From positions 1 through 64,000 of the forward strand of contig NZ_JAGSHT010000003.1 in NCBI RefSeq assembly GCF_019947135.1: a stretch of 64,000 bases of DNA, read 5' to 3'. Positions within the stretch are counted from its first letter, which is position 1. Each line of letters starts with the position of its first letter. Shown here in pieces: positions 18,787 through 31,306 of the stretch. The notes under the pieces were generated by a model that was not told the origin of the DNA, ran no database searches, and saw nothing but the letters and a program-made list of their open reading frames with translations. Origin of the DNA: Occultella gossypii. Its GTDB lineage: Bacteria; Actinomycetota; Actinomycetes; Actinomycetales; Beutenbergiaceae. A program made the position numbers and the translations under genes.

Positions 18787-20165
18787 CTGCGACCCCTCGG
18801 CTGTCCCGATCCCTGCCCGATACGCCGGCCGCCGCGCCGGTGCGCATCGTGCACCTGGGAGTGGGCAACTTCCACCGCGCGCACCAGGCCTGGTACACCC
18901 ACCACGCCCCGGACGCCTCCGAGTGGGGGATCGCGGCCTTCACCGGTCGCCGCCCCGATCAGGCGGAGGCGCTCAGCCCGCAGGACGGCCTGTACACGCT
19001 CGTCGTGCGTGGCCCCGAGGGCGACTCCTACGAACTGATCGGGTCGCTGTCCGCCGTGCACGCCGCGTCCGAGCAGGACGCCTACCTCGGCTACCTGGCC
19101 GACCCTGCGCTGGCCATCGTCACGATGACGGTCACCGAGCACGGCTACGTGCGCGGCGAGGGCGACCACCTCGACGCCCGGCGCCCCGAGGTGCTCACCG
19201 ACGTCTCGGCGCTGCGCGAGGACCCGCGCTCGCCCGTGGCCACGATGCCGGCCAAGCTGGTCGCCGGGCTGCTCGCCCGCCGGGCCGCCGGCGCCGGTCC
19301 GCTGACCATCCTGTCCTGCGACAACCTGCCCGAGAACGGTTCGGTCACCCGCACCCTGGTCACCGAGCTCGCCGCGCTGGTCGACGAGTCACTGGTGGAC
19401 TGGACCGAGGCGAACGTCGACTTCGCCACGTCCATGGTGGACCGGATCACCCCGGCCACCACCGCCGACGACCGCGCGCATGTGGCTGCCGAGCGTGGCT
19501 ATGACGACGCGTCCCCGGTCCCGACCGAGCCCTTCAGCGAGTGGGTCATCTCGGGAGCGTTCCCGGCCGGCCGGCCCCGCTGGGAGGACGCCGGCGCGAA
19601 GGTCGTCGACGACGTCGCCCCGCACGAGCGGCGCAAGCTCTGGCTGCTCAACGGCTCGCACTCCCAGCTCGCCTACGTGGGCAGCGTGCGCGGACACACC
19701 ACCATCGACCAGGCCATCGCGGACCCCAGGTGCCTGGCCTGGGTCGAGCAGTTCTGGGACGAGGCGCAGGCCAACCTCGGTCTGCCGGACGAGGACGTGA
19801 GCGCCTACCGCGCCGCCCTGCTGGACCGGTACCGCAACGAGCGGGTACGGCACCTGCTCGCCCAGATCGCCAGCGACGGCTCTCAGAAGCTGCCCGTGCG
19901 CACCCTGCCCACCCTGAACGCCGAGCGGGCCGCCGGGCGGGTCCCGGTCGGTGCGGCCACCACCCTCGCCGGGTGGGTGCTGCACCTGCGCGGCGTCGGT
20001 GCCCCGGTCAAGGACCCCGGCGCCGGCCCGGCACAGGAGGCCGCGAACGCCGGCGACCTGGCCGACGTCGTGCCCGCGGTGCTGAACACCCTCCAGGCGG
20101 ACCTGGGATCGGACGCGGACCTGGTCGCGGCCGTCGTCGCCCAGGCTGCGGCGATCCAGGAGTAG
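18783..20165 (+). CDS. uxuB: Mannitol dehydrogenase family protein, probable D-fructuronate reductase
   Basis: NAD(H)-dependent long-chain polyol dehydrogenase; directly downstream of uxaC the most likely role is reduction of fructuronate to mannonate. The N-terminus VRIVHLGVGNFHRAHQAWYTH is the family nucleotide-binding signature, and ILSCDNLPENG and KLWLLNGSHSQLAYVG mark the catalytic region with the conserved Lys and Asn-Gly-x-His. The GTG start overlaps the uxaC stop by 4 bases. Tagaturonate reduction or a plain mannitol/arabitol activity cannot be excluded from sequence alone. No mannonate or altronate dehydratase lies nearby. Confidence 0.82.
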   Translation: MTATPRLSRSLPDTPAAAPVRIVHLGVGNFHRAHQAWYTHHAPDASEWGIAAFTGRRPDQAEALSPQDGLYTLVVRGPEGDSYELIGSLSAVHAASEQDAYLGYLADPALAIVTMTVTEHGYVRGEGDHLDARRPEVLTDVSALREDPRSPVATMPAKLVAGLLARRAAGAGPLTILSCDNLPENGSVTRTLVTELAALVDESLVDWTEANVDFATSMVDRITPATTADDRAHVAAERGYDDASPVPTEPFSEWVISGAFPAGRPRWEDAGAKVVDDVAPHERRKLWLLNGSHSQLAYVGSVRGHTTIDQAIADPRCLAWVEQFWDEAQANLGLPDEDVSAYRAALLDRYRNERVRHLLAQIASDGSQKLPVRTLPTLNAERAAGRVPVGAATTLAGWVLHLRGVGAPVKDPGAGPAQEAANAGDLADVVPAVLNTLQADLGSDADLVAAVVAQAAAIQE

Positions 20166-20170
20166 ACACG

Positions 20171-21733
20171 ATGGTGGGCGCTCTCCCGGTGCTGATCGGC
20201 CTCGACGTCGGTACCACGGCCGCGAAGGTGGCCGCCTTCGAGGTGGCCGACGCGGCCGGGGAGGGCCGCTCCACCACCGCCGTCGGGGCCTCGGTCGCGG
20301 AGGCGCAGCGCGAATACCCGCTCGAGCAGCCCCACCCGGGCTGGCAGGTGCAGGACCCGGCCGCGATCCTCACCGGGATCGACGCGGCGCTCGCCGACGT
20401 CGTCGCCCAGCTGGGCGAGCGCCGGATCCTCGGCCTGTCGGTGTCCACCGCGATGCACGGACTCATCGGCCTCGGCGCCGACGGAGTGCCGCTCACCCCG
20501 CTGATCACGTGGGCGGACGCGCGCTCGGCCGCGCAGGCCCGCGAACTGCGTGCGGCCGGCCGCGGCGCGGAACTGCTCCGGCTGACCGGCACACCGGTCC
20601 ACCCGATGAGCCCGCTGGTCAAGCTCATCTGGTTCGGCCGGCACGAGCCGGATCTGGCCGCGCGGGTGCGCCGGTGGATCGGCCTGAAGGACCTGGTCCT
20701 CGCCCACCTGACCGGACGCCTGGTCACCGAGCTGTCCAGCGCCTCGGCCACCGGGCTGCTCGACGTCCACACCCGCACCTGGTCCCCGCAGGCCCTCGAC
20801 CTGGCCGGGATCAGCACCGACCAGCTCCCCGAGGTGCTGCCCACCACCGCCACCCTGCCCCTGACCGCCGACGTCGCGGACGCGACGGGCCTGACCGCCG
20901 GGCTGCCCGTGGCCGTCGGCGCGGCGGACGGCCCGCTCGGCAACCTGGGCACCGGCGCGATCACGCCCGGGATCGCCGGCCTGTCGCTGGGCACCAGCGG
21001 CGCGGTGCGGATGGCCGTGACCGGTCCGGTCACCGACGACGCCGGCCGGCTGTTCTGCTACGCCCTCACCGAGGAGCTGTGGGTCCTCGGCGGCGCCGTC
21101 AGCAACGGCGGCATCACACTGCGCTGGGCGGGGGAGACGTTCACGCCGGACCTGCTCACGCACGGCCACGCCGACACCGAGCTCCTCGCCCTCGCGACCC
21201 AGGTCCCGCCCGGTGCGGACGGACTCGTGATGCTCCCATACGTGCTCTCCGAGCGGGCGCCGCTGTGGGACCCGGACCTGACCGGCGCGTTCCTCGGGGT
21301 GCGCCACCACCACGGCCGGGCCCACTTCCTGCGGGCCGCGGTCGAGGGCGTCTGCCTGCAGGTCGCCACCATCGTGGACCTGCTGGACGCAGTGGCTCCC
21401 GTGCAGGCGGTACGTGCCACCGGGGGACCGTTCCGGGCCCAGCTGTGGCGCGAGGTCATGGCCGCCACGATCGGTCGCCCGTTCGCGATCGCCTCGGACG
21501 CCGGCGGCACCGCCCTCGGCGCCGCAGCACTCGGCTGGTACGCCCTCGACGGCGCCGCCGACCTGGCCACCGCGCTGCGGGCGGTCGGTGGTCCCGGGCC
21601 GGACGACGGCGGCACGCAGGTCCCCGTGTCCGCCGAGGTGGTCGCGGGCTACGACGCGCGCCGCGAGCGCCTGCCGGCGCTGATCCGATCGCTGGCCGAG
21701 GTGGCCGACGTCTTCGAGGCCGCCCGCCACTGA
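20171..21733 (+). CDS. FGGY-family carbohydrate kinase, gluconokinase-like
   Basis: ATP-dependent sugar or sugar-acid kinase. The N-terminal phosphate-binding GLDVGTTAAKVAAF, the STAMHGLIGLGADG and ITWADARSAAQ segments, and the C-terminal SLGTSGAVRM, LPYVLSERAPLWDPDL and RATGGPFRAQLWREV fit the Bacillus GntK-type gluconokinases better than xylulokinases. 520 residues from the ATG at 20171, which is 5 bases after the previous stop. If it is a gluconokinase, its product is the substrate of the Gnd encoded at 12.6 kb. Phosphorylation of 2-keto-3-deoxygluconate is an alternative, although that step normally uses a PfkB-family enzyme. It ends the operon. Confidence 0.8.
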   Translation: MVGALPVLIGLDVGTTAAKVAAFEVADAAGEGRSTTAVGASVAEAQREYPLEQPHPGWQVQDPAAILTGIDAALADVVAQLGERRILGLSVSTAMHGLIGLGADGVPLTPLITWADARSAAQARELRAAGRGAELLRLTGTPVHPMSPLVKLIWFGRHEPDLAARVRRWIGLKDLVLAHLTGRLVTELSSASATGLLDVHTRTWSPQALDLAGISTDQLPEVLPTTATLPLTADVADATGLTAGLPVAVGAADGPLGNLGTGAITPGIAGLSLGTSGAVRMAVTGPVTDDAGRLFCYALTEELWVLGGAVSNGGITLRWAGETFTPDLLTHGHADTELLALATQVPPGADGLVMLPYVLSERAPLWDPDLTGAFLGVRHHHGRAHFLRAAVEGVCLQVATIVDLLDAVAPVQAVRATGGPFRAQLWREVMAATIGRPFAIASDAGGTALGAAALGWYALDGAADLATALRAVGGPGPDDGGTQVPVSAEVVAGYDARRERLPALIRSLAEVADVFEAARH

Positions 21734-21786
21734 CCGACCGACCGGCGGGCCGACCGACCGACCGACGGGCCGACCGCCCGACGTCG

Positions 21787-21850
21787 CGCTCGAACGCGAG
21801 GTCGTTGTCCTCTCTCGGCGGGTCGGAGCCAACAACCTCGCGTTCGAGCG
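21787..21850. repeat. Long inverted repeat with 21-base arms after the uronate operon
   Basis: Arms 21787-21807 and 21830-21850 are reverse complements with one mismatch, separated by 22 bases. Each arm itself contains a small CTCG/CGAG palindrome, so a branched structure is possible. A low-complexity tract of GACC-type repeats (about 21732-21782) precedes it. The element could be the operon terminator or a REP/MITE-like sequence; no U-tract or coding region accompanies it. The rest of the 272-base gap holds the promoter of the next operon. Confidence 0.65.
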
Positions 21851-21954
21851 GCGAGCCGACCGACGGAGCCGGCCCTGCGCCGTCGACGGCAGTTCGTGAC
21901 GCACGCCACGACCGGGGCGAGCGATCCGCCGGGAATACCTGACGCCGTCGGGCG

Positions 21955-21984
21955 TTGACACCCTTAGGATCATGCAAACGCATG
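21955..21984 (+). promoter_or_regulatory. Promoter region with MarR-type palindrome before the flavin oxidoreductase operon
   Basis: TTGACA (21955-21960) and TAGGAT (21965-21970) are promoter-like hexamers but not correctly spaced with each other; either may belong to a promoter with a weak partner. The palindrome CATGC-AAAC-GCATG (21971-21984) overlaps the predicted transcription start and is the natural candidate for binding by the MarR protein encoded second in the operon. A strong ribosome site GAGGAGGAG (21992-22000) precedes the ATG at 22006. Confidence 0.5.
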
Positions 21985-22005
21985 AAGATTTGAGGAGGAG
22001 TTCAG

Positions 22006-23142
22006 ATGCAGTTCGGGATCTTCACCGTCGGGGACGTCACCACGGATCCGACCACGGGCCGCACGCCCACCGAGGGCGAGCGGATCAAGGCGATCCTGAC
22101 GATCGCCAAGCACGCCGAGGATGTCGGCCTGGACGTGTTCGCGACGGGTGAGCACCACAACCCGCCGTTCATCCCCTCCTCCCCGACCACGATGCTCGGC
22201 TACATCGCCGCGCAGACGTCGAAGATCATCCTGTCCACCTCGACGACGCTGATCACCACGAGCGACCCGGTGAAGATCGCCGAGGACTTCGCGATGCTGC
22301 AGCACGTCTCCGACGGTCGCACCGACGTGATGCTCGGCCGCGGCAACACCGGCCCGGTGTACCCCTGGTTCGGCAAGGACATCCGCCAGGCGATCCCGCT
22401 GACCGTGGAGAACTACCAGCTCCTGCGCCAGCTGTGGGACTCCGAGGTCGTGGACTGGGAGGGCCGGTTCCGCACCCCGCTGCAGGGCTTCACGTCCACC
22501 CCGCGTCCGCTCGACGGCGTAGCGCCGTTCGTGTGGCACGGCTCGATCCGCTCCCCGCAGGTGGCCGAGCTCGCCGCGTTCTACGGCGACGGCTTCTTCG
22601 CGAACAACATCTTCTGGCCCAAGGAGCACTTCAAGCAGCTGATCGGCCTGTACCGCCAGCGCTTCGAGCACTACGGGCACGGCACCGCCGACCAGGCGAT
22701 CGTCGGCCTCGGCGGGCAGGTGTTCATGCGCAAGAACTCCCAGGACGCGGTCCGTGAGTTCCGGCCGTACTTCGACAACGCGCCCGTCTACGGCGGTGGC
22801 CCCTCGCTCGAGGAGTTCACCGACGCGACCCCGCTGACCGTCGGCAGCCCGCAGGAGGTCATCGACTCCACCCTTGCCTTCCGGGACTCCTTCGGCGACT
22901 ACCAGCGCCAGCTGTTCCTGATGGACCACGCCGGTCTACCGCTGAAGACCGTGCTCGAGCAGCTCGACCTGCTCGGCGGCGAGGTGGTGCCGGTGCTGCG
23001 TGCCGAGTTCGCGAAGAACCGGCCGGCGCACGTACCGGACGGTCCCACGCACGCCGCGCTCGTCGCCGCCAAGGGCGCCGAGGTCGACCTCACCCCGCGC
23101 GAGGTCGTCAAGGACACCGTCACCGGACGCACCGCATCATGA
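22006..23142 (+). CDS. LLM-class flavin-dependent oxidoreductase
   Basis: Luciferase-like monooxygenase of unknown substrate, expected to use reduced FMN supplied by a partner reductase. The TIM-barrel signature is clear: MQFGIFTVGD at the start, DVFATGEHHNPPFIPSSPTTML, then EDFAMLQHVSDGRTDVMLGRG, the usual flavin-site region. 378 residues, typical for the CE1758-like group that co-occurs with a CE1759-type FMN reductase, which is present two genes downstream. The stop overlaps the next start (ATGA). Confidence 0.9.
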   Translation: MQFGIFTVGDVTTDPTTGRTPTEGERIKAILTIAKHAEDVGLDVFATGEHHNPPFIPSSPTTMLGYIAAQTSKIILSTSTTLITTSDPVKIAEDFAMLQHVSDGRTDVMLGRGNTGPVYPWFGKDIRQAIPLTVENYQLLRQLWDSEVVDWEGRFRTPLQGFTSTPRPLDGVAPFVWHGSIRSPQVAELAAFYGDGFFANNIFWPKEHFKQLIGLYRQRFEHYGHGTADQAIVGLGGQVFMRKNSQDAVREFRPYFDNAPVYGGGPSLEEFTDATPLTVGSPQEVIDSTLAFRDSFGDYQRQLFLMDHAGLPLKTVLEQLDLLGGEVVPVLRAEFAKNRPAHVPDGPTHAALVAAKGAEVDLTPREVVKDTVTGRTAS

Positions 23143-23627
23143 CCACCAGGACGGCCGCGCTGGCCTGGGAGGCGCTGTTCCGGACGCAGGTCACGCTGAT
23201 GCGGCGCTTCGAGGCCGCCCGTGACTTCGAACCGCTCAGCTCGCGTGAGTACGACGTGCTGTTCAACCTCTCCCGGATGCCCGACGGCGCGGCTCGGCTT
23301 CGCGACCTGAACGCCCAGTTGCTCATCTCGCAGCCGAGTCTGTCCCGCATGGTCGATCGCCTCGCCGGCGCCGGGCTGGTCGCCCGGCGCGAGGCCGACG
23401 ACGACGGCCGCGGCGTGGTCGTCGCGCTCACGCCGGCCGGCGCCGAGCTGCAGAAGCAGATCGGTCGGCGGCACGTGCGGCACATCGGCGCACTCGTCGA
23501 CAACGGTCTGGACGAGGCCGACCAGGCCGCCCTGGCCCGGATCTGCGAGAAGCTGCAGGCCGCCGTCACCGACGCTCCCACCCCCACGAACCGGATCCGC
23601 ACCAGAACGGAGACCCCGAGCTCATGA
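23139..23627 (+). CDS. MarR-family transcriptional regulator
   Basis: Winged-helix regulator of 162 residues. The core LSSREYDVLFNLSRMPDGAARLRDLNAQLLISQPSLSRMVDRL covers the recognition helix region, followed by the wing RREADDDGRGVVVALT. It is coupled by ATGA overlaps on both sides to the LLM oxidoreductase and FMN reductase genes, so it most likely autoregulates this operon through the palindrome at 21971-21984. The ligand may be a phenolic or oxidant, as in many MarR systems, but nothing in the sequence specifies it. Confidence 0.92.
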   Translation: MTTRTAALAWEALFRTQVTLMRRFEAARDFEPLSSREYDVLFNLSRMPDGAARLRDLNAQLLISQPSLSRMVDRLAGAGLVARREADDDGRGVVVALTPAGAELQKQIGRRHVRHIGALVDNGLDEADQAALARICEKLQAAVTDAPTPTNRIRTRTETPSS

Positions 23628-24199
23628 CCGAGCCCCTGAAGATCGTCGCCCTCAGCGGCGGCGTCGGCTTTCCCTCGACCACCCGCACCCTCACCGACGA
23701 CCTGCTCTCCGCCGTCGCCGAGTCCGCGACCGCAGCCGGCGCGGAGGTGAGCCTGCGCACCGTCGAGGCGCGCGAGCATGCTGCGGACGTCGCGAACGCG
23801 ACCGTGCTCGGGCTTCCGAGCCCCGCGCTCGACGCGGCCCTGCACGCGGTCGAGGGCGCGGACCTGCTGATCGCGGCGAGCCCGGTGTTCCGTGGCTCCT
23901 ACGCGGGCATCTTCAAGGCCTTCATGGACCTCGTGGACCCGGTGGCGATGCGCGGCAAGACCGTGCTCCTTGGCGCCACCGGCGGCTCGTCACGGCACCA
24001 GCTCGCCATCGACCAGGCGATGCGGCCGCTGTTCGCCTACTTCGGCGCACTGATCGCACCGACGGCGGTCTACGCCTCCGCGGACGACTTCGGCGTCGCG
24101 GGGCGGGCCACGCCGATCCTGGCCGAACGGCTCAGCCGGGCCGGGGACGAGGCGCTCCGGCTCACCGTCGCCACCGCACGGGCCCGCGCGGGGGCCTGA
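23624..24199 (+). CDS. NAD(P)H-dependent FMN reductase (CE1759-like)
   Basis: Flavodoxin-fold reductase supplying FMNH2, most likely to the LLM oxidoreductase at the head of the same operon. Recognisable parts are IVALSGGVGFPSTTRTLTDDLL (phosphate loop for FMN), ADLLIAASPVFRGSYAGIFKAFMDLVD and KTVLLGATGGSSRHQLAIDQAMRPLFAYF. 191 residues. The start ATG overlaps the MarR stop. The gene ends 148 bases before the leuS leader peptide, with no clear terminator seen between. Confidence 0.88.
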   Translation: MTEPLKIVALSGGVGFPSTTRTLTDDLLSAVAESATAAGAEVSLRTVEAREHAADVANATVLGLPSPALDAALHAVEGADLLIAASPVFRGSYAGIFKAFMDLVDPVAMRGKTVLLGATGGSSRHQLAIDQAMRPLFAYFGALIAPTAVYASADDFGVAGRATPILAERLSRAGDEALRLTVATARARAGA

Positions 24200-24347
24200 C
24201 CCCGACTGGTCCGGAGAGCACTGCCGGGATTCGCCCGTGCTGACCACGAAGCGGAGCAGGGCCGCGCAAGCGGAGCTCGCCAGGACATGGTCCCGGCCCG
24301 CGAAAAGCGGCAGGGGCGACGAGGTCGGCCTGCGGTAGGCTGATGGG

Positions 24348-24386
24348 ATGTTCTCCACGGAGTTGTTGCTTACCCAGCCGCGCTGA
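24348..24386 (+). CDS. leuS leader peptide with three consecutive Leu codons
   Basis: A 12-residue [15 protein letters not shown], starts at ATG 24348 and stops at TGA 24384-24386. The three adjacent leucine codons are TTG, TTG and CTT, which are uncommon in this GC-rich genome where CTG/CTC prevail. A TAGGCT at 24336-24341 is positioned as a -10 whose start point would fall at or near the ATG. The peptide precedes leuS by 127 bases and is followed by pairing segments that fit ribosome-mediated attenuation: leucine or charged tRNA-Leu shortage would stall the ribosome here. Confidence 0.72.
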
Positions 24387-24456
24387 TCTGCAGCGGACGC
24401 CCACGCGGCGTCGCGTCAGCGCGGCCGACCTCCCACGTTCTGCGGGGGGTCGTTCT
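24378..24456 (+). terminator. Leucine attenuator hairpins of leuS
   Basis: CCGCGCTGA (24378-24386, overlapping the leader stop) pairs perfectly with TCAGCGCGG (24416-24424), enclosing a small GACGCC/GGCGTC hairpin. A second stem follows: CGACCTCCC near 24426-24434 with GGGGGGTCG at 24444-24452 (one G-U), trailed by GTTCT, a short U-rich run that fits an intrinsic terminator for a GC-rich organism. A ribosome stalled on the Leu codons would cover the 5' arm of the first stem. The antiterminator partner was not identified by eye. Confidence 0.55.
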
Positions 24457-24513
24457 CATGTCAGCCTCCGTGACGCCGCCGCCTTGCCGGTGGCCCTGCC
24501 CAAGGAATCGCAC

Positions 24514-27468
24514 ATGTCTGAGCCCCACGCCGCCGTCACCGATACGGCCGCCACCGACGTCGCCATCCCGGCCCACCGCTACACCGCGGACCTGGCGGCG
24601 CACATCGAACTGTCCTGGCAGGAGCGGTGGGCCGCCGAGGGCACGTTCCACGCGCCGAACCCGACCGGTGACCTCGCCGGCGACGGCGAGGTCCCGGCCG
24701 AGAAGTTCTACGTGCTGGACATGTTCCCCTACCCCTCGGGCAAGGGCCTGCACGTGGGGCATCCGCTGGGCTACATCGCCACGGACGTGGTCGGCCGGTT
24801 CAAGCGGATGACCGGCGCGAACGTGCTGCACGCGCTGTCCTACGACGCGTTCGGGCTGCCGGCCGAGCAGTTCGCCGTGCAGACCGGGCAGCACCCGCGC
24901 ATCACCACCGACGAGAACATCGACACGATGCGCCGCCAACTGCTGCGAATGGGCCTGGCGCACGACGAGCGTCGCTCGTTCGCGACCACCGACGCCGGCT
25001 ACGTGCGCTGGACCCAGTGGATCTTCCTGCAGATCTTCAACTCCTGGTACGACCACGACGCGCCACGGCCCGGCGGCGGCGTCGGTGCCGCGCGCCCGAT
25101 CGCCGAGCTGGAGGCCGCCTTCGCGTCGGGGGAGCGGGCCGCCCCGGACGGGCGCGCCTGGGCGGATCTGAGCGCGGCCGAGCGCGAGGACGTGCTGGGC
25201 ACCTACCGCCTGGCCTACGTGGCCGACGTGCCGGTGAACTGGTGCCCCGGCCTGGGCACGGTGCTGGCCAACGAAGAGGTCACCGCCGAGGGTCGCTCCG
25301 AGCGCGGCAACTTCCCGGTCTTCAAGCGCAACCTGCGCCAGTGGATGATGCGGATCACCGCCTACGGCGACCGCCTGGTCGACGACCTGGACCGGCTGGA
25401 CTGGCCGGAGAAGGTCAAGACCATGCAGCGCAACTGGATCGGGCGCTCCGAGGGCGCGCGGGTGACGTTCGCGGTCGCGGGGGGCGACGGCGACGCTTCC
25501 GCTGGCGAGTCCAGCGCTGCCGGCGGATCCGCAGCTATCGAGGTGTTCACCACCCGCCCGGACACCCTGTTCGGTGCGACGTTCATGGTGCTGGCCCCCG
25601 AGCACCCGCTGCTGGACGCGGGCGTGCCCGCCGAGTGGCCCGAGGGGACCCACTCGGCGTGGACCGGCGGGCACACGGCCCCCGTGGACGCCGTCGCCGC
25701 CTATCGCGCCGCGGCCGCGGCGAAGACGGACATCGAGCGCCAGGCCGAGGGCCGCGAGAAGTCCGGTGTGTTCACCGGCCTGTTCGCGGTCAACCCAGTC
25801 AACGCCGCCCCGCTGCCGGTGTTCATCGCGGACTACGTGCTGATCGGCTACGGCACCGGCGCGATCATGGCCGTGCCCGGCGGGGACGCCCGCGACCACG
25901 ACTTCGCCACCGCCTACCAGTTACCGATCGTGCACACGGTAGCGCCGCCGTCGGGTTTCGACGGCGGTGCGTACGGGGGCGACGGCGTCATCATCAACTC
26001 CGCGAACGACGAGGTCAGCCTGAACGGGCTGGACGTGGCCGAGGCCAAGCGCACGATCACCGCCTGGCTGGAGGGCAAGGGACTGGGCACCACCACGGTC
26101 ACCTACCGGCTGCGGGACTGGCTGTTCTCCCGGCAGCGGTACTGGGGCGAGCCGTTCCCGGTGGTCTACGACTCCGACGGCCGCGTGATCGCGCTGCCGG
26201 ACGAGATGCTGCCGGTCGAGCTGCCGGAGGTCCCGGACTTCTCGCCGCGCACGTACGCCGACGACGATGCAGAGTCCTCCCCGGAGCCCCCGCTGGCCCG
26301 GGGCGAGGCCTGGGTGAACGTCGAGCTGGACCTGGGCGACGGGCCGAAGATCTACCGCCGCGACACGAACACGATGCCCAACTGGGCCGGCTCATGCTGG
26401 TACGAGCTGCGCTACCTGGACCCGACGAACACGTCCGCGGCCGTGGACCCGGAGATCGAGAAGTACTGGATGGGTCCGCGCACCGGCCCGGACGGCAAGC
26501 CGACCACCGGTGGCGCCGACCTGTACGTCGGCGGCGTGGAGCATGCCGTGCTGCACCTGCTGTATGCGCGGTTCTGGCACAAGGTGCTGTTCGACCTGGG
26601 CCACATCTCGAGCGTCGAGCCGTTCCACAAGCTGTTCAACCAGGGCTACATCCAGGCCTACGCCTACACCGACGCCCGAGGCGTGCACGTGCCCGCCGAG
26701 GAGGTCACCGAGGAGGTCGGCTCCGACGGCGACCCGATCTGGACCTGGAACGGCCAGGTGGTGAACCGTGAGTACGGCAAGATGGGCAAGTCCCTGAAGA
26801 ACATGGTCACCCCGGACGAGATGTACGCCGCCTACGGCGCGGACACGTTCCGGGTGTACGAGATGAGCATGGGACCGCTGGACCTGTCCCGGCCGTGGGA
26901 CACCCGCGCGGTCGTCGGGGCGCAACGGTTCCTGCAGCGGCTGTGGCGCAACGCGGTCGACGAGGAGACCGGCGAGCTGACCGTCACGGACGCCCCGGCC
27001 GACGCCGAGACCCGCCGCGTGGTGGCCCGGACGATCGCGGACGTGCGCACCGAGATGTCTGCGATGCGCCCGAACACCGCCATCGCGAAGCTGATCGTGC
27101 TGAACAACCACCTGACCTCCCAGGCCAATGTGTCCCGCGAGGCCATCGAGCCGCTGGTGCTGATGACCGCACCCGTGGCACCGCACATCGCCGAGGAGCT
27201 GTGGGAGCGGCTGGGCCACACCGAGTCGCTGACCTACCACGCCTTCCCGAAGGCGGACGAGGCACTGCTGGTCGCCGACACCGTCACGTGCGTGGTGCAG
27301 GTGCAGGGCAAGGTGCGGGACCGGCTCGAGGTGCCGCCGACGATCGGCGAGGACGAGCTGCAGGAACTGGCGCTGGCCGCCCCCGCCGTGCAGCGCGCCC
27401 TGGACGGCCGCGGCATCCGCAAGGTGATCGTGCGGGCGCCGAAGCTGGTCAACATCGTTCCTGCCTGA
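24514..27468 (+). CDS. leuS: Leucyl-tRNA synthetase
   Basis: Class I synthetase charging tRNA-Leu. The HIGH-type motif is HVGH at residues 80-83 ([16 protein letters not shown]), the KMSKS-type motif reads KMGKS at 756-760, and the CP1 editing domain holds [20 protein letters not shown] and the [19 protein letters not shown] loop. The zinc/leucine-specific insertions common to bacterial LeuRS are recognisable between. The ATG at 24514 has AAGGA 7 bases upstream; an open frame continues farther 5' but overlaps the leader and its hairpins and is not expected to be translated. 984 residues. Regulated most probably by the leader peptide described above. Confidence 0.97.
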
Positions 27469-27517
27469 CGGCGCGACCGCCCGGCGGCCCGGGCGTGCGG
27501 CCCGCGCAGCCGGGGCG

Positions 27518-27540
27518 CCGGCACCTGCACGAGGCGCCGG
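27518..27540 (+). terminator. Possible leuS terminator hairpin
   Basis: CCGGCACCT (27518-27526) and AGGCGCCGG (27532-27540) form a 9-base stem with one A-C mismatch and a 5-base loop, 50 bases after the leuS stop. No U-tract follows. The surrounding gap 27469-27907 (439 bases) has no gene; its second half is the operator array of the MFS gene. Confidence 0.35.
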
Positions 27541-27754
27541 GCCGGCGGCTCTACTGTTCCACCTGCAGCGCCGGCCGGGCGAAGCGGGCCGAGTCCGCGG
27601 ACGCCGGAGCAGTTGCGACCGGCTGACCGACGATCGGCCCCGCCGTGACCGGATCGCGTCGATAGCGGGCCGGACTGCGACCACGCGAACGAGATCCTCG
27701 AGTCCGGTGACGTAGCAACGTGCGCCACCCGGTGCTACGCAGCCGAGGGCCGAA

Positions 27755-27832
27755 GGCAACGGACGGCAACCACCGAACAACTCCTGGCAACCGCCCGGCA
27801 ACGGCTGGCAACAGCTGCCGGGTGGTTGCCGT
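27755..27832. promoter_or_regulatory. Array of helically phased GGCAAC half-sites before the MFS transporter
   Basis: GGCAAC occurs in the same orientation at 27755, 27765, 27786, 27797 and 27807, with spacings 10, 21, 11 and 10 bases, that is whole helical turns. The inverse GTTGCC closes the array at 27825-27830. The outer limits form a perfect 12-base inverted repeat, ACGGCAACCACC (27763-27774) with GGTGGTTGCCGT (27821-27832), and CCCGGCA/TGCCGGG nests inside. The half-site is the same as in the uxaC and lacI operators. Confidence 0.7.
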
Positions 27833-27907
27833 GCTCTGTCTCAATGGGATCCATACCACCAACACCCATGGCCGTCGGTCCGTCCGGCGGCTGCAGAGAG
27901 GCAGATC

Positions 27908-29281
27908 ATGAGTGTGCTCGACGAAGTGAAGGTCGCCGCCGCGGCGTCGACCGCGGCCGCCCCCGGCGAGGTCGCCGCGGCATCCGTGGCCGGTTCCGCC
28001 ACCAGCGAGGCCCCGGAGACGAAGGGCCGCGGCAAGGCCGTCGGCGCCCTGTCGATCGCCGGCGCGATCGACAACTCCGAGAACTCGCTCATCAACACGT
28101 TCTTCCCGCTGATCCGGGACGCGTTCGGGCTCTCGCTCGGCGCGCTCGGCATCCTGGCCAGCCTGGCCCGGTTCGCTCGGATGATCTTCGGCCCGGCTTG
28201 GGCGCTCGCCGCCGACCGGTTCGGTCGCAAGAAGGTCCTGTTCATCGTCACCGGCGTCTGGGGCCTATGGACCGCCGCCGGCGGCCTCGCGCCGAACTTC
28301 ACGTGGCTCGTGATCCTGTACGGCATCGGTGTCATCGGCACGGTGGCCTCCGAGCCCATCGTGAACGGCCTGCTCGGCGACATGTTCGACGACAAGACCC
28401 GGGGCCGCGCGTTCGGCACCGTCCGCGGCATCGGGTCCGTCCTGGGCATGGCCCTCGGCCCGGCCATCGCCCTGTTCGCGAACGACCCGAACGGCTGGCG
28501 CTACGGCATGTTCACCATGGGTGGCCTGAGTGTGCTGTCCGGCGTCCTGATCCTGCTGTTCGTCAAGGAACCGGAGCGCAAGAGCTCGATCTCGGACGAC
28601 CCCGACGTGGGCCGGTTCAAGATCACCGACGCGGCCAAGCTGTTCAAGATCCCGACGATCGGCCTGCTCGCCGGCATGCTCCCCCTGGTCACCTCGCTCG
28701 TCCTGTTCTCCTTCTTCGTGACCTACATGGTGGACGTGCGCGGCTGGGACATCCCCGGCGCGGCGATCCTGTGGTCGGTGTTCGCAGCCGGCATGGCGGT
28801 CTCGGCGTTCGTCGGCGGACTCCTCGGTGACCTCTTCGTCCGCAAGTTCGGGGCCAAGGGCCGGATCATCCTCATGCAGATCTACCTGGTCGCGATGGCC
28901 GGCATGTCCTACGTGGCGCTCCAGATGGACTGGGGCAAGGGGGTCGCCGTGTATGCGGTGATCTTCACGTTCGGCCTGATCGCCTCGGTCGGCTTCTCCG
29001 CCTGCGTGCTCCCGATGGTCTCCACGGTGGCCCCGAAGCAGCTTTCGGCGACGGCGTTCGCCGTGCTGTTCTCACTGATCCAGGGCGCCATCAGCGCGCT
29101 GATGACCCTCGCCATGGGCTTCCTGTCCGACGTCCTCGGGCTGCAGCAGGTGATGCTCTACCTGGTCACCGTCCCGTACCTGATCAACGCCGGCTACTGG
29201 TTCCTGTTCTACCGCGTGTATCCCAAGGACGCGGCCAAGCAGGCCGAGCGCACCGCCGCGATCGAGGCGGGCACGTTCTGA
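27908..29281 (+). CDS. MFS transporter, candidate sugar-acid importer
   Basis: Twelve-helix major facilitator. The first loop carries the MFS motif as DRFGRKKVLFIVTG, and a second copy of the motif appears as GDLFVRKFGAKGR after helix 8. The N-terminus has an unusual Ala/Glu-rich cytosolic tail of about 45 residues before SIAGAIDNSENSLINTFFPL. Substrate is not evident from sequence. Because its promoter shares phased GGCAAC sites with the uronate operon, uptake of hexuronate, gluconate or a related sugar acid is a reasonable proposal. The ATG has AGAGAGGCAG upstream. 457 residues. Confidence 0.88.
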   Translation: MSVLDEVKVAAAASTAAAPGEVAAASVAGSATSEAPETKGRGKAVGALSIAGAIDNSENSLINTFFPLIRDAFGLSLGALGILASLARFARMIFGPAWALAADRFGRKKVLFIVTGVWGLWTAAGGLAPNFTWLVILYGIGVIGTVASEPIVNGLLGDMFDDKTRGRAFGTVRGIGSVLGMALGPAIALFANDPNGWRYGMFTMGGLSVLSGVLILLFVKEPERKSSISDDPDVGRFKITDAAKLFKIPTIGLLAGMLPLVTSLVLFSFFVTYMVDVRGWDIPGAAILWSVFAAGMAVSAFVGGLLGDLFVRKFGAKGRIILMQIYLVAMAGMSYVALQMDWGKGVAVYAVIFTFGLIASVGFSACVLPMVSTVAPKQLSATAFAVLFSLIQGAISALMTLAMGFLSDVLGLQQVMLYLVTVPYLINAGYWFLFYRVYPKDAAKQAERTAAIEAGTF

Positions 29282-29344
29282 TCGGACGCTGACCTGCCAC
29301 ACGATCCCTCGCCGAACCGCTGACCGCGGACCGGCGGGGGATCG

Positions 29345-31306
29345 TCAGCGTCTGCGGGTGCCGAAGATCGACCGGGTGATCTCCCGGCCCAGCACCGAGC
29401 CCGCGCTGCGCAGGAACGAGTCGAGTCCGGCGCGGCTGGTGCGGGCGGCCGCGGTCTGCTGCTTCTCGGCCTCCCGCTGCGCCCGCTCGGCCTCCTTCGC
29501 CGCGTCCCGGCGCAGCTTCTCCTGCATCTTCTCCAGGTCCGCCTGCTCCTTGGCCCGGTCCTTCTCCGCCTGCTTCTCGCTCTCCGACCGGGCCTTCGCC
29601 TCCGCCTCAGCCTTCGTCGCGGCCTCGGCGGCGGCGCGGTCGGAGTCGATCCGCCGGGTCAGCATCTCGTAGGCGGACTCATTGTCGACGGCGGTGCCGT
29701 ACTTCGCGTTCGACGGCGACGCGGTCACGATCGCGGTGAGCGTCGCCTCGGGCGCGGGGTCCATCGAGGCCTGCGGTGCCCGCAGCCGGGTCCACGCCAC
29801 GGGCGTCGGTGCCCCCTTCTCGGTGAGGACCGTGACGACGGCCTCGCCGGTGCCGAGGGCGGTGAGCAGTTCCTCGAGGTCGTAGCCGGACTTAGGGAAC
29901 GTGCGCACGGTGGCCCGCAGTGCCGTCTGGTCGTCCGGGGTGAACGCACGCAGCGCGTGCTGCACGCGGTTGCCGAGCTGCGCGAGCACGTCGGCCGGCA
30001 CGTCCTTCGGCGTCTGGGTGACGAAGAAGATCCCGACCCCCTTCGAGCGGATCAGCCGCACGGTCTGGACCACCTGGGTCAGGAAGTCCTTGGACGCGCC
30101 GTTGAACAGCAGGTGCGCTTCGTCGAAGAAGAACACCAGCTTCGGCTTGTCCGCGTCACCGACCTCCGGCAGGTCGGTGAACAGGTCCGCGAGCAGCCAC
30201 ATCAGGAAGGTGGAGAACAGGGCGGGCCGGTCCTGCACGGACGGCAGTTCCAGGGCGGAGATCACGCCGCGTCCGTCCGAGGCGAGCCGGATCAGGTCGG
30301 AGGTGACGAACGCGGGCTCGCCGAAGAACACGTCCGCGCCCTGGGCCTGGAGCGCGACGATCTCCCGCAGGATCACGCCGGCGGTGGCCGTGGAGATCCC
30401 GCCGATGCCCTTCAGTTCGCCCTTGCCGTCGTCCGAGGTGAGGTAGGCGATGGTGGACTTCAGGTCCTTGAGGTCGAGCAGCGCCAGGCCCTGGGAGTCG
30501 GCCCAGTGGAAGATCAGCCCGAGCGAGGACTCCTGGGTGTCGTTCAGTCCGAGGACCTTGGCCAGCAGCAGCGGACCGAAATCGGTCACGGTGGTGCGGA
30601 TCGGCACGCCATGGCCCATCCCGCCGAGGGAGTAGAACTCCACCGGGTAGGAGGCGCTGTGCCAGTCCTGGCCGAGGCTCGTGGTGCGCGCGAGGAGCTT
30701 CTCGTTGCCCTCCCCGGGCACGGCGAGGCCGGACAGGTCGCCCTTGATGTCGGCGAGGAACACCGGCACCCCGGCCTCCGAGAGACCCTCCGCCATGCCC
30801 TGCAGCGTCCGCGTCTTGCCGGTACCGGTGGCGCCGGCGACGAGCCCGTGCCGGTTCATCATCGACAGTGGGAGGCCGATCTGGGCTCCGGCGATCGCTG
30901 CGTCGTCCTCGACGAGCGCGCCCAGCTGCAGCATGCCGCCCTCGAACCGGTAGCCGGCCACGATGGCGGCTGCGGCCTCGGACAGGTCGCTGCCCGACGG
31001 CGGTGCCGTGGGTTCGGCGGGCTCGGTCGCCGCTGCCGGCGCTGCTTCGGGTTCCGGCGCAGGTTCCGGCGCGGGTTCTGCCTCGGGTTCTGGCGCGCCC
31101 TCGGCCTGGGGCGCCGGCACGGGTTCCGGCGCGCGCTCTGCCTCGGGCACCGGCTCCGCCGCGTCACCTCCCGCCCGGGACGATGCGGCCTCGGCCGCCT
31201 CGAGGGCGGCGCGTGCAGCTGCCGCGCGGGCCTCGGCAGCCTCCGCCTCTGCCTGGGCGGCCGCGGCCCGGAGGGCGGCCAGGTCCGGTGTCGCGTTGTC
31301 GCTCAT
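29345..31306 (-). CDS. HerA-like ATPase, DUF853 (helicase HerA-like C-terminal domain)
   Basis: P-loop ATPase related to HerA/FtsK translocases; cellular role unclear in bacteria. The ATG at 31306 (MSDNATPDL) gives 653 residues. Residues 1-125 are Ala/Glu/Pro-rich and likely coiled coil then disordered. The ATPase core has Walker A GATGTGKTRT near residue 160 and Walker B LVFFFDEAHLLF near 392, with a downstream sensor-like FFVTQTPKDVP. The C-terminus is a long charged coiled coil (AKARSESEKQAEKDRAKEQ and on). It is a stand-alone convergent neighbour of the MFS gene; no NurA nuclease partner is nearby. Confidence 0.9.
   Translation of the reverse strand: MSDNATPDLAALRAAAAQAEAEAAEARAAAARAALEAAEAASSRAGGDAAEPVPEAERAPEPVPAPQAEGAPEPEAEPAPEPAPEPEAAPAAATEPAEPTAPPSGSDLSEAAAAIVAGYRFEGGMLQLGALVEDDAAIAGAQIGLPLSMMNRHGLVAGATGTGKTRTLQGMAEGLSEAGVPVFLADIKGDLSGLAVPGEGNEKLLARTTSLGQDWHSASYPVEFYSLGGMGHGVPIRTTVTDFGPLLLAKVLGLNDTQESSLGLIFHWADSQGLALLDLKDLKSTIAYLTSDDGKGELKGIGGISTATAGVILREIVALQAQGADVFFGEPAFVTSDLIRLASDGRGVISALELPSVQDRPALFSTFLMWLLADLFTDLPEVGDADKPKLVFFFDEAHLLFNGASKDFLTQVVQTVRLIRSKGVGIFFVTQTPKDVPADVLAQLGNRVQHALRAFTPDDQTALRATVRTFPKSGYDLEELLTALGTGEAVVTVLTEKGAPTPVAWTRLRAPQASMDPAPEATLTAIVTASPSNAKYGTAVDNESAYEMLTRRIDSDRAAAEAATKAEAEAKARSESEKQAEKDRAKEQADLEKMQEKLRRDAAKEAERAQREAEKQQTAAARTSRAGLDSFLRSAGSVLGREITRSIFGTRRR

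Follow-up and report, generated by a model that had tools for sequence, protein, structure and literature searches.

Why does a 12-codon open reading frame (ORF) with three consecutive leucine codons lie directly upstream of leuS, the gene for leucyl-tRNA synthetase (LeuS), in the 64,000-nucleotide stretch of Occultella gossypii DNA analyzed here (hereinafter, the window)? The answer that we favor, with a probability of roughly 80%, is that this leader subjects leuS to ribosome-mediated transcription attenuation and is a homolog of the leuL2-leuS leader of Streptomyces. The locus consists of the following elements:

24336-24341, + strand: -10 box TAGGCT, 6 nt 5' of the leader ATG; predicted leaderless start at 24348
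24348-24386, + strand: leuL-like leader peptide ORF, 12 aa, ATG TTC TCC ACG GAG TTG TTG CTT ACC CAG CCG CGC TGA
24363-24371, + strand: putative regulatory Leu codons TTG TTG CTT, rare codons, the last being CTT as in 63 of 68 leaders
24377-24387, + strand: 5' arm of stem S1, including the leader stop codon (folding, covariation)
24396-24412, + strand: inner hairpin P2 (GACGCC..GGCGTC), within the S1 loop (folding)
24415-24425, + strand: 3' arm of S1 (folding, covariation)
24426-24452, + strand: terminator-like hairpin T, abutting S1 with zero spacer (folding, covariation)
24453-24458, + strand: weak U-tract TTCTCA, 3' of T
24502-24506, + strand: Shine-Dalgarno-like AAGGA of leuS
24514-27468, + strand: leuS, leucyl-tRNA synthetase, 984 aa plus stop (NCBIfam TIGR00396, 861.8 bits, cut-off 548.4)

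The ORF with its TTG TTG CTT run, ending 127 nt before the leuS ATG (24514), and the TAGGCT box, exactly 6 nt from the leader ATG, are all located where the preliminary description had placed them. The same description called the leucine codons unusual and, indeed, across the seven coding sequences of the window, TTG accounts for 1 of 313 leucine codons and CTT for 5 of 313. A short ORF with a Leu-Leu-Leu run appeared in 0.4% of 4000 Markov sequences (314 nt each), and in no case did a TANNNT box stand 5-7 nt 5' of it; on both strands of the 64-kb window, the leader is the sole short ORF with such a run and a box in register. The combination of the leader ORF and the box is not due to chance. 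Judging from the spacing of the box, transcription probably starts at 24348, and the leader is probably translated without a Shine-Dalgarno sequence.

The leuS frame itself is open from an in-frame ATG at 24343, and LeuS might start there, in which case the whole region would be an N-terminal extension of the enzyme. We give this reading almost no credence and rejected it because, in three leuS regions from the same genus (L002-L004), the extension frame contains a stop codon; furthermore, the MSE start and the Shine-Dalgarno-like AAGGA are kept in all three. Separately, a perfect 10-nt inverted repeat connects the promoter region (24321-24330) with the junction of S1 and T (24423-24432). We considered this repeat as a means of sequestering T and dismissed it, given that it extends 5' of the predicted transcript start and, by eye, is missing in L002-L004.

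The perfect 9-base stem holding the leader stop codon (24378-24386 with 24416-24424) that was originally described is part of S1, whose full length is 11 bp (24377-24387 paired with 24415-24425). The terminator-like stem described at 24426-24452 also stands; a weakness is the U-rich run said to follow it, which is poor in the window, as it is in some of the relatives. Consistent with the structured leader proposed at the outset, the RNA 24348-24464 is more stable than its dinucleotide shuffles (z -2.43; 4 of 200 shuffles equally good). Aminoacyl-tRNA synthetase genes of other phyla often carry T-boxes. Here, a T-box or another known riboswitch has next to no chance of being the explanation: when positions 20000-30000 were searched against Rfam 15 (E<=1), the only match, at 23116-23168, was below the gathering score, and neither the T-box covariance model nor any other matched the leader.

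To place the leader among its relatives, we collected 163 leuS upstream regions, 17 from the window's family (24 genomes), 81 from its order (149 genomes, 89 of them with a LeuS match) and 65 from its class (158 genomes, 76 with a match). The order set omits six genomes sampled before as well as G078 and G153, whose matches do not include the N terminus; the class set omits seven genomes sampled before, G277 and G287, and also G190 and G279, again for matches without the N terminus. L073, L111 and L138, with little or no upstream DNA, are counted within the 163. Short ORFs containing Leu-Leu were selected as leaders if a TANNNT box stood 5-8 nt 5' of the start, a filter that biases the resulting set of 68 (34 of 98 regions in the family and order, 34 of 65 in the class). 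A covariance model trained on these 68, and thus matching them by construction, detected 70 of the 163 (36 of 98 and 34 of 65), the two additions, L011 and L088, being leaders with a single Leu codon; by this model, whose E-values are rough because of a short calibration, 93 of the 163 regions have no leader.

The presence of the leader follows families. It is found in 14 of 17 regions of f1 (the window's family), 1 of 1 in f2, 2 of 11 in f3, 2 of 2 in f5, 9 of 9 in f12, 8 of 10 in f16, 1 of 2 in f26, 15 of 15 in f33, 14 of 14 in f34, 3 of 5 in f40 and 1 of 1 in f45; in f4, f7, f8, f9, f19, f21, f29, f32 and f38 taken together, it is found in 0 of 76. The genomes of relatives are not independent samples. 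The LeuS of L002, from the window's genus, is 97% identical to that of the window. Within the 5-8 nt set by the selection rule, the start codon lies 6 nt (52 leaders) or 7 nt (16 leaders) from the box. Altogether, the close relatives and some of the distant ones keep the features whose conservation the preliminary description had put at stake, namely the Leu run and the two stems, and they also keep the leaderless spacing. In f33, 13 of the 15 leaders encode exactly the S. lividans LeuL2 peptide, as given in the available part of PMC8079986, and the other two differ from it by one residue; f33 is therefore taken as Streptomyces. One alignment and one covariance model span f33 and the leader of the window, as expected of homologs of the Streptomyces leader.

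As their last Leu codon, 63 of the 68 leaders use CTT, three CTC and two CTG; in the coding sequences of 34 leuS genes, CTT represents 6 of 1864 Leu codons. Counted from the first base of the final Leu codon, S1 begins 8 nt further on; in each of the 68 leaders, 8-10 of 10 positions are paired, a figure that is biased because the 3' arm was picked as the best match. In a plain MAFFT alignment, 97.2% of the S1 cells pair, and the compensatory changes that the earlier description called for are there, with 19 double-change cells compared to 3.3 in shuffles (0 of 500 as high); when the partner is slid by 1-3 columns, pairing falls to 25-54%. For T, 85.8% of the cells pair, and there are 53 double-change cells compared to 16.0 in shuffles (0 of 500 as high); neither the number of T pairs with changes in both partners (equaled in 167 of 500 shuffles) nor the number of pair types (485 of 500) exceeds the shuffles, and T is poorly aligned, pairing in a slide of -1 being 77.3%, near the unshifted value. 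The gap between S1 and T is 0-2 nt in 66 of the 68 leaders. By eye, three stop layouts can be discerned: TGA ending the S1 5' arm, as in the window; TAG just 5' of the arm; and an extended ORF terminating inside the loop (L095, L104 and L107). By eye, the loop of T resembles CUGYG, a possible pause site, in a number of distant families (f12, f16, f33, f34 and f45).

Under the favored reading, the transcript would begin at or beside the leader ATG, and the leader would be translated without a Shine-Dalgarno sequence. With ample Leu-tRNA, the ribosome would reach the TGA within S1 and mask the S1 5' arm; T would form and transcription would end. When Leu-tRNA is scarce, the ribosome would stall in the Leu run, with the rare codons conferring sensitivity, and would free the S1 5' arm, fully at the first Leu codon and partly at the last; S1 would then close right against T, and RNA polymerase would continue into leuS. 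The ORF, codon choice, box, S1, T and spacing in this scheme come from sequence comparison; from these we infer that the leader is translated, that ribosomes stall in it and that T terminates transcription, as well as the sign of the response and the role of S1 as antiterminator. We assign S1 to the starved state because the Leu run lies outside S1, at a distance that frees it when the ribosome stalls, and because, in most leaders, the stop codon is placed where a finishing ribosome must cover S1. From this geometry and by analogy with mycobacterial ilvB1, S1 probably forms upon a stall at the Leu codons, allowing read-through. For mycobacterial ilvB1, the available part of PMC13236596 proposes the same sign and reports that replacement of the regulatory codons abolished induction; counting against the scheme, changes of the S. 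coelicolor ilvB leader codons had no effect in work cited in the portion of PMC1262725 at hand.

We folded the 68 leaders under an assumed ribosome footprint, masking the RNA as far as 12 nt 3' of the A-site codon's first base, in four states: ribosome at the first Leu codon, at the last Leu codon, at the stop codon and no ribosome. S1 is predicted (at least 0.5) in all 68 leaders with the ribosome stalled at the first Leu codon, in 20 with the ribosome at the last, and, by construction, in none with the ribosome at the stop; T is predicted (at least 0.8) in 68, 65 and 62 of the 68, respectively, and in 66 with no ribosome. In L001, T is predicted at 0.97 in all four states. It falls below 0.8 in at least one state in L014, L096, L101, L106, L108, L122 and L154, being lost in three of the four states in L101; in L106 and L108 (both f12), masking of S1 abolishes the predicted T, which suggests an opposite role of S1 in their lineage. 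The position of the ribosome, at the stall site or at the stop, thus alters the predicted fold at S1, subject to the assumed footprint; judging from these counts, at equilibrium, S1 shifts with the ribosome and T barely does.

Classical attenuation of the trp type, with mutually exclusive hairpins, is not supported, since S1 and T share no base and T stays predicted in 62-68 of the 68 leaders in each state. Folding of the 68 leaders in several ribosome positions detected no trp-type antiterminator sharing a strand with T. The ribosome-mediated attenuation before leuS that the preliminary description put forward is supported by the sequence tests, but the textbook pair of competing hairpins is not, given the lack of overlap and of a 2:3 antiterminator. 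The S1 loop can form a duplex with the T 3' arm above the level of shuffled loops in only 7 of the 68 leaders (six f34, one f45), and with the T 5' arm in 0 of 68. The duplex with the 3' arm outscores the T hairpin in 35 of the 68, in a comparison that disregards loop closure and the loop's own P2, and for this reason, an antiterminator of the ilvB-II kind stays a candidate.

The prediction of T in nearly every ribosome state would also fit a different reading, in which T is a constitutive terminator that lowers leuS expression and S1 is a pause hairpin, so that the leader couples the ribosome and the polymerase with little amino acid sensing. By eye, the end of S1 is located about 10-12 nt 5' of the CUGYG frequent in the T loop, a putative pause motif. 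This possibility appears very unlikely, as it leaves the conserved Leu runs and the CTT bias unexplained.

Another alternative is translational attenuation, in which the Leu codons would sequester the leuS initiation region by pairing until a stalled ribosome releases it, similarly to the LEU element of leuA. By eye, the Leu codons often resemble an anti-Shine-Dalgarno sequence (CTCCTT). Pairing is possible between CUUAUCGG and CCGAUGAG, around the start of leuS, in several f34 leaders and between UUCUGC and GCAGAG, 5' of leuS, in many f33 leaders; for leuA, the part of PMC1262725 available to us describes Leu codons paired with the Shine-Dalgarno sequence. However, among 67 leaders (one of the 68 was dropped for its short target), complementarity between the Leu codons and the region past the terminator beats shuffles (p<0.05) in only 7, compared to 3.4 expected, with a mean z of -0.47, and the leader of the window pairs less well than its shuffles (z 1.50). 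Together with the retention of T in most leaders, this makes translational control quite unlikely, and we retain transcription attenuation as the preferred reading.

Matches to the model are also found in front of other genes. At E<=1, the model has two matches in the window's genome, one before leuS (E 6.9e-20) and one before a citramalate synthase gene (E 4.3e-5). The latter leader (L181; G000:C28:39187-39298, - strand) encodes MMPTSVLIID followed by a stop codon, its S1 directly abuts T, and it has a good U-run; the gene 3' of it was identified as citramalate synthase by TIGR00977 (439.9 bits over a 400-aa fragment, cut-off 450). Across the order, the model matches 74 of 149 genomes at E<=0.001. 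All 20 matches outside the model with E<=3.8e-7 and no prior locus precede a gene with a LeuS motif, and, among the order-set matches, no window-type LeuS (E<=1e-200) was found in those 20 genomes; in the one pair compared, the LeuS of this other lineage (L021) is 39% identical to that of the window. A further 20, weaker matches precede, by eye, leuA (9), citramalate synthase (5), ilvB (2), leuC (1) and unnamed (3) genes. A phylum-wide search at E<=0.01 matched 33 of 296 genomes, three of which, from f78, have leuS leaders and do not belong to the class. Among 35 leuS leaders that had not entered the model, the final Leu codon is CTT in 25 cases, CTC in seven, CTA in two and CTG in one, and S1 and T are 0-2 nt apart in 26, with no T found in four and other gaps in five.

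Minimum-energy folds of L181 and of the ilvB-type leader L205 (named by eye) show S1 and T abutting without a spacer; those of the ilvB-type leaders L269 and L280 do not. We suggest tentatively, and with more doubt than confidence, that S1 is an antiterminator by abutment, that is, a long duplex 0-2 nt before T that could not be pulled into the RNA exit channel as T closes, as a plan common to leuS, citramalate synthase and ilvB across Actinomycetota and distinct from the strand competition of the trp type; S1 would hinder T, we infer, by steric conflict in the RNA exit channel. Several leaders depart from the common plan. In f13, leuS leaders with a single Leu (L264, L266 and L267) encode MLTRRLPGRR (one in the tail), MSSRRLAGRR and MSSRRLASRR, each followed by a stop codon, and the box and an S1-like stem persist. 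LLLLSCRDES-like leaders (L201, L202, L206, L204 and L282) precede leuA and leuC (named by eye) and contain an S1-like stem after the Leu codons, but a distinct T followed by a U-run cannot be made out in them; of these, L201 was folded.

The two LeuS lineages occur in several combinations. In G011:C45 (L009/L026), one leader is followed by a window-type leuS and, after about 33 nt, by an other-type leuS without a leader of its own, the arrangement expected if one enzyme replaced the other while the leader was kept. In G012 and G013, from the same genus as G011, the leader is found with the second LeuS lineage only. In G021 and G015 (L005, L006, L027 and L028), the two lineages occupy separate loci; no leader match precedes the window-type copy, and the other copy has a leader, the last Leu codon of which is CTA. 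The occurrence of the leader before leuS of a different enzyme lineage suggests that regulation can outlive the gene it controls.

With a single covarying RNA model, leuS attenuation can be extended beyond Streptomyces, and an evolutionarily kept codon (CTT) and spacing can be identified. New here are the breadth of the leader, its presence before a LeuS lineage with 39% identity and the finding of no trp-type antiterminator in the folded leaders. These observations pose a testable question, namely, how a terminator is controlled by a stem that does not overlap it.

In the trp and leu leaders of E. coli, the 2:3 and 3:4 hairpins overlap, the leader peptide is led by a Shine-Dalgarno sequence, and the target is biosynthetic. 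The leuS leader resembles these attenuators in the regulatory codons of a leader peptide and in the terminator before the gene; unlike them, it has non-overlapping hairpins and is predicted to lack a Shine-Dalgarno sequence, and its target is a synthetase. Further leuS cases may reportedly be listed by Lopatovskaya (2010). The mycobacterial polycysteine uORFs (from a title in PMC13236596) are also short, leaderless ORFs with a codon run, but the codons are for cysteine, and, according to the accessible part of PMC1262725, a search for a conserved terminator hairpin there found none. Mycobacterial ilvB1, in the part of PMC13236596 available, likewise has a leader with regulatory codons, in which a ribosome at the stop masks the antiterminator and the terminator is Rho-independent; unlike the window leader, it controls a biosynthetic operon with mixed branched-chain codons. 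The Corynebacterium ilvB-II motif, as far as PMC10272879 was available, has a similar layout, with a uORF over P1 and P2 as the terminator, and goes along with low expression in rich medium; the antiterminator proposed there, between the P1 loop and the P2 3' arm, has an equivalent above shuffles only in the seven leuS leaders noted above. Attenuation of leuS is already known in kind from Streptomyces: classical attenuators were predicted in 2005 before leuS of S. avermitilis and S. coelicolor (PMC1262725), and S. lividans LeuL2, MRAVRLLLSEPR followed by a stop codon, was reported in 2021 to be leaderless and followed by a hairpin and uridines (PMC8079986), both papers being cited from the portions available. 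As described there, LeuL2 differs from the leader of the window, which belongs to Micrococcales, encodes another peptide with the Leu codons TTG TTG CTT and has a weaker U-tract; the two share a 12-aa peptide with Leu-Leu-Leu and a C-terminal Pro-Arg before the stop codon, a leaderless start and a hairpin plus terminator before leuS, the start and the terminator being predicted in the case of the window.
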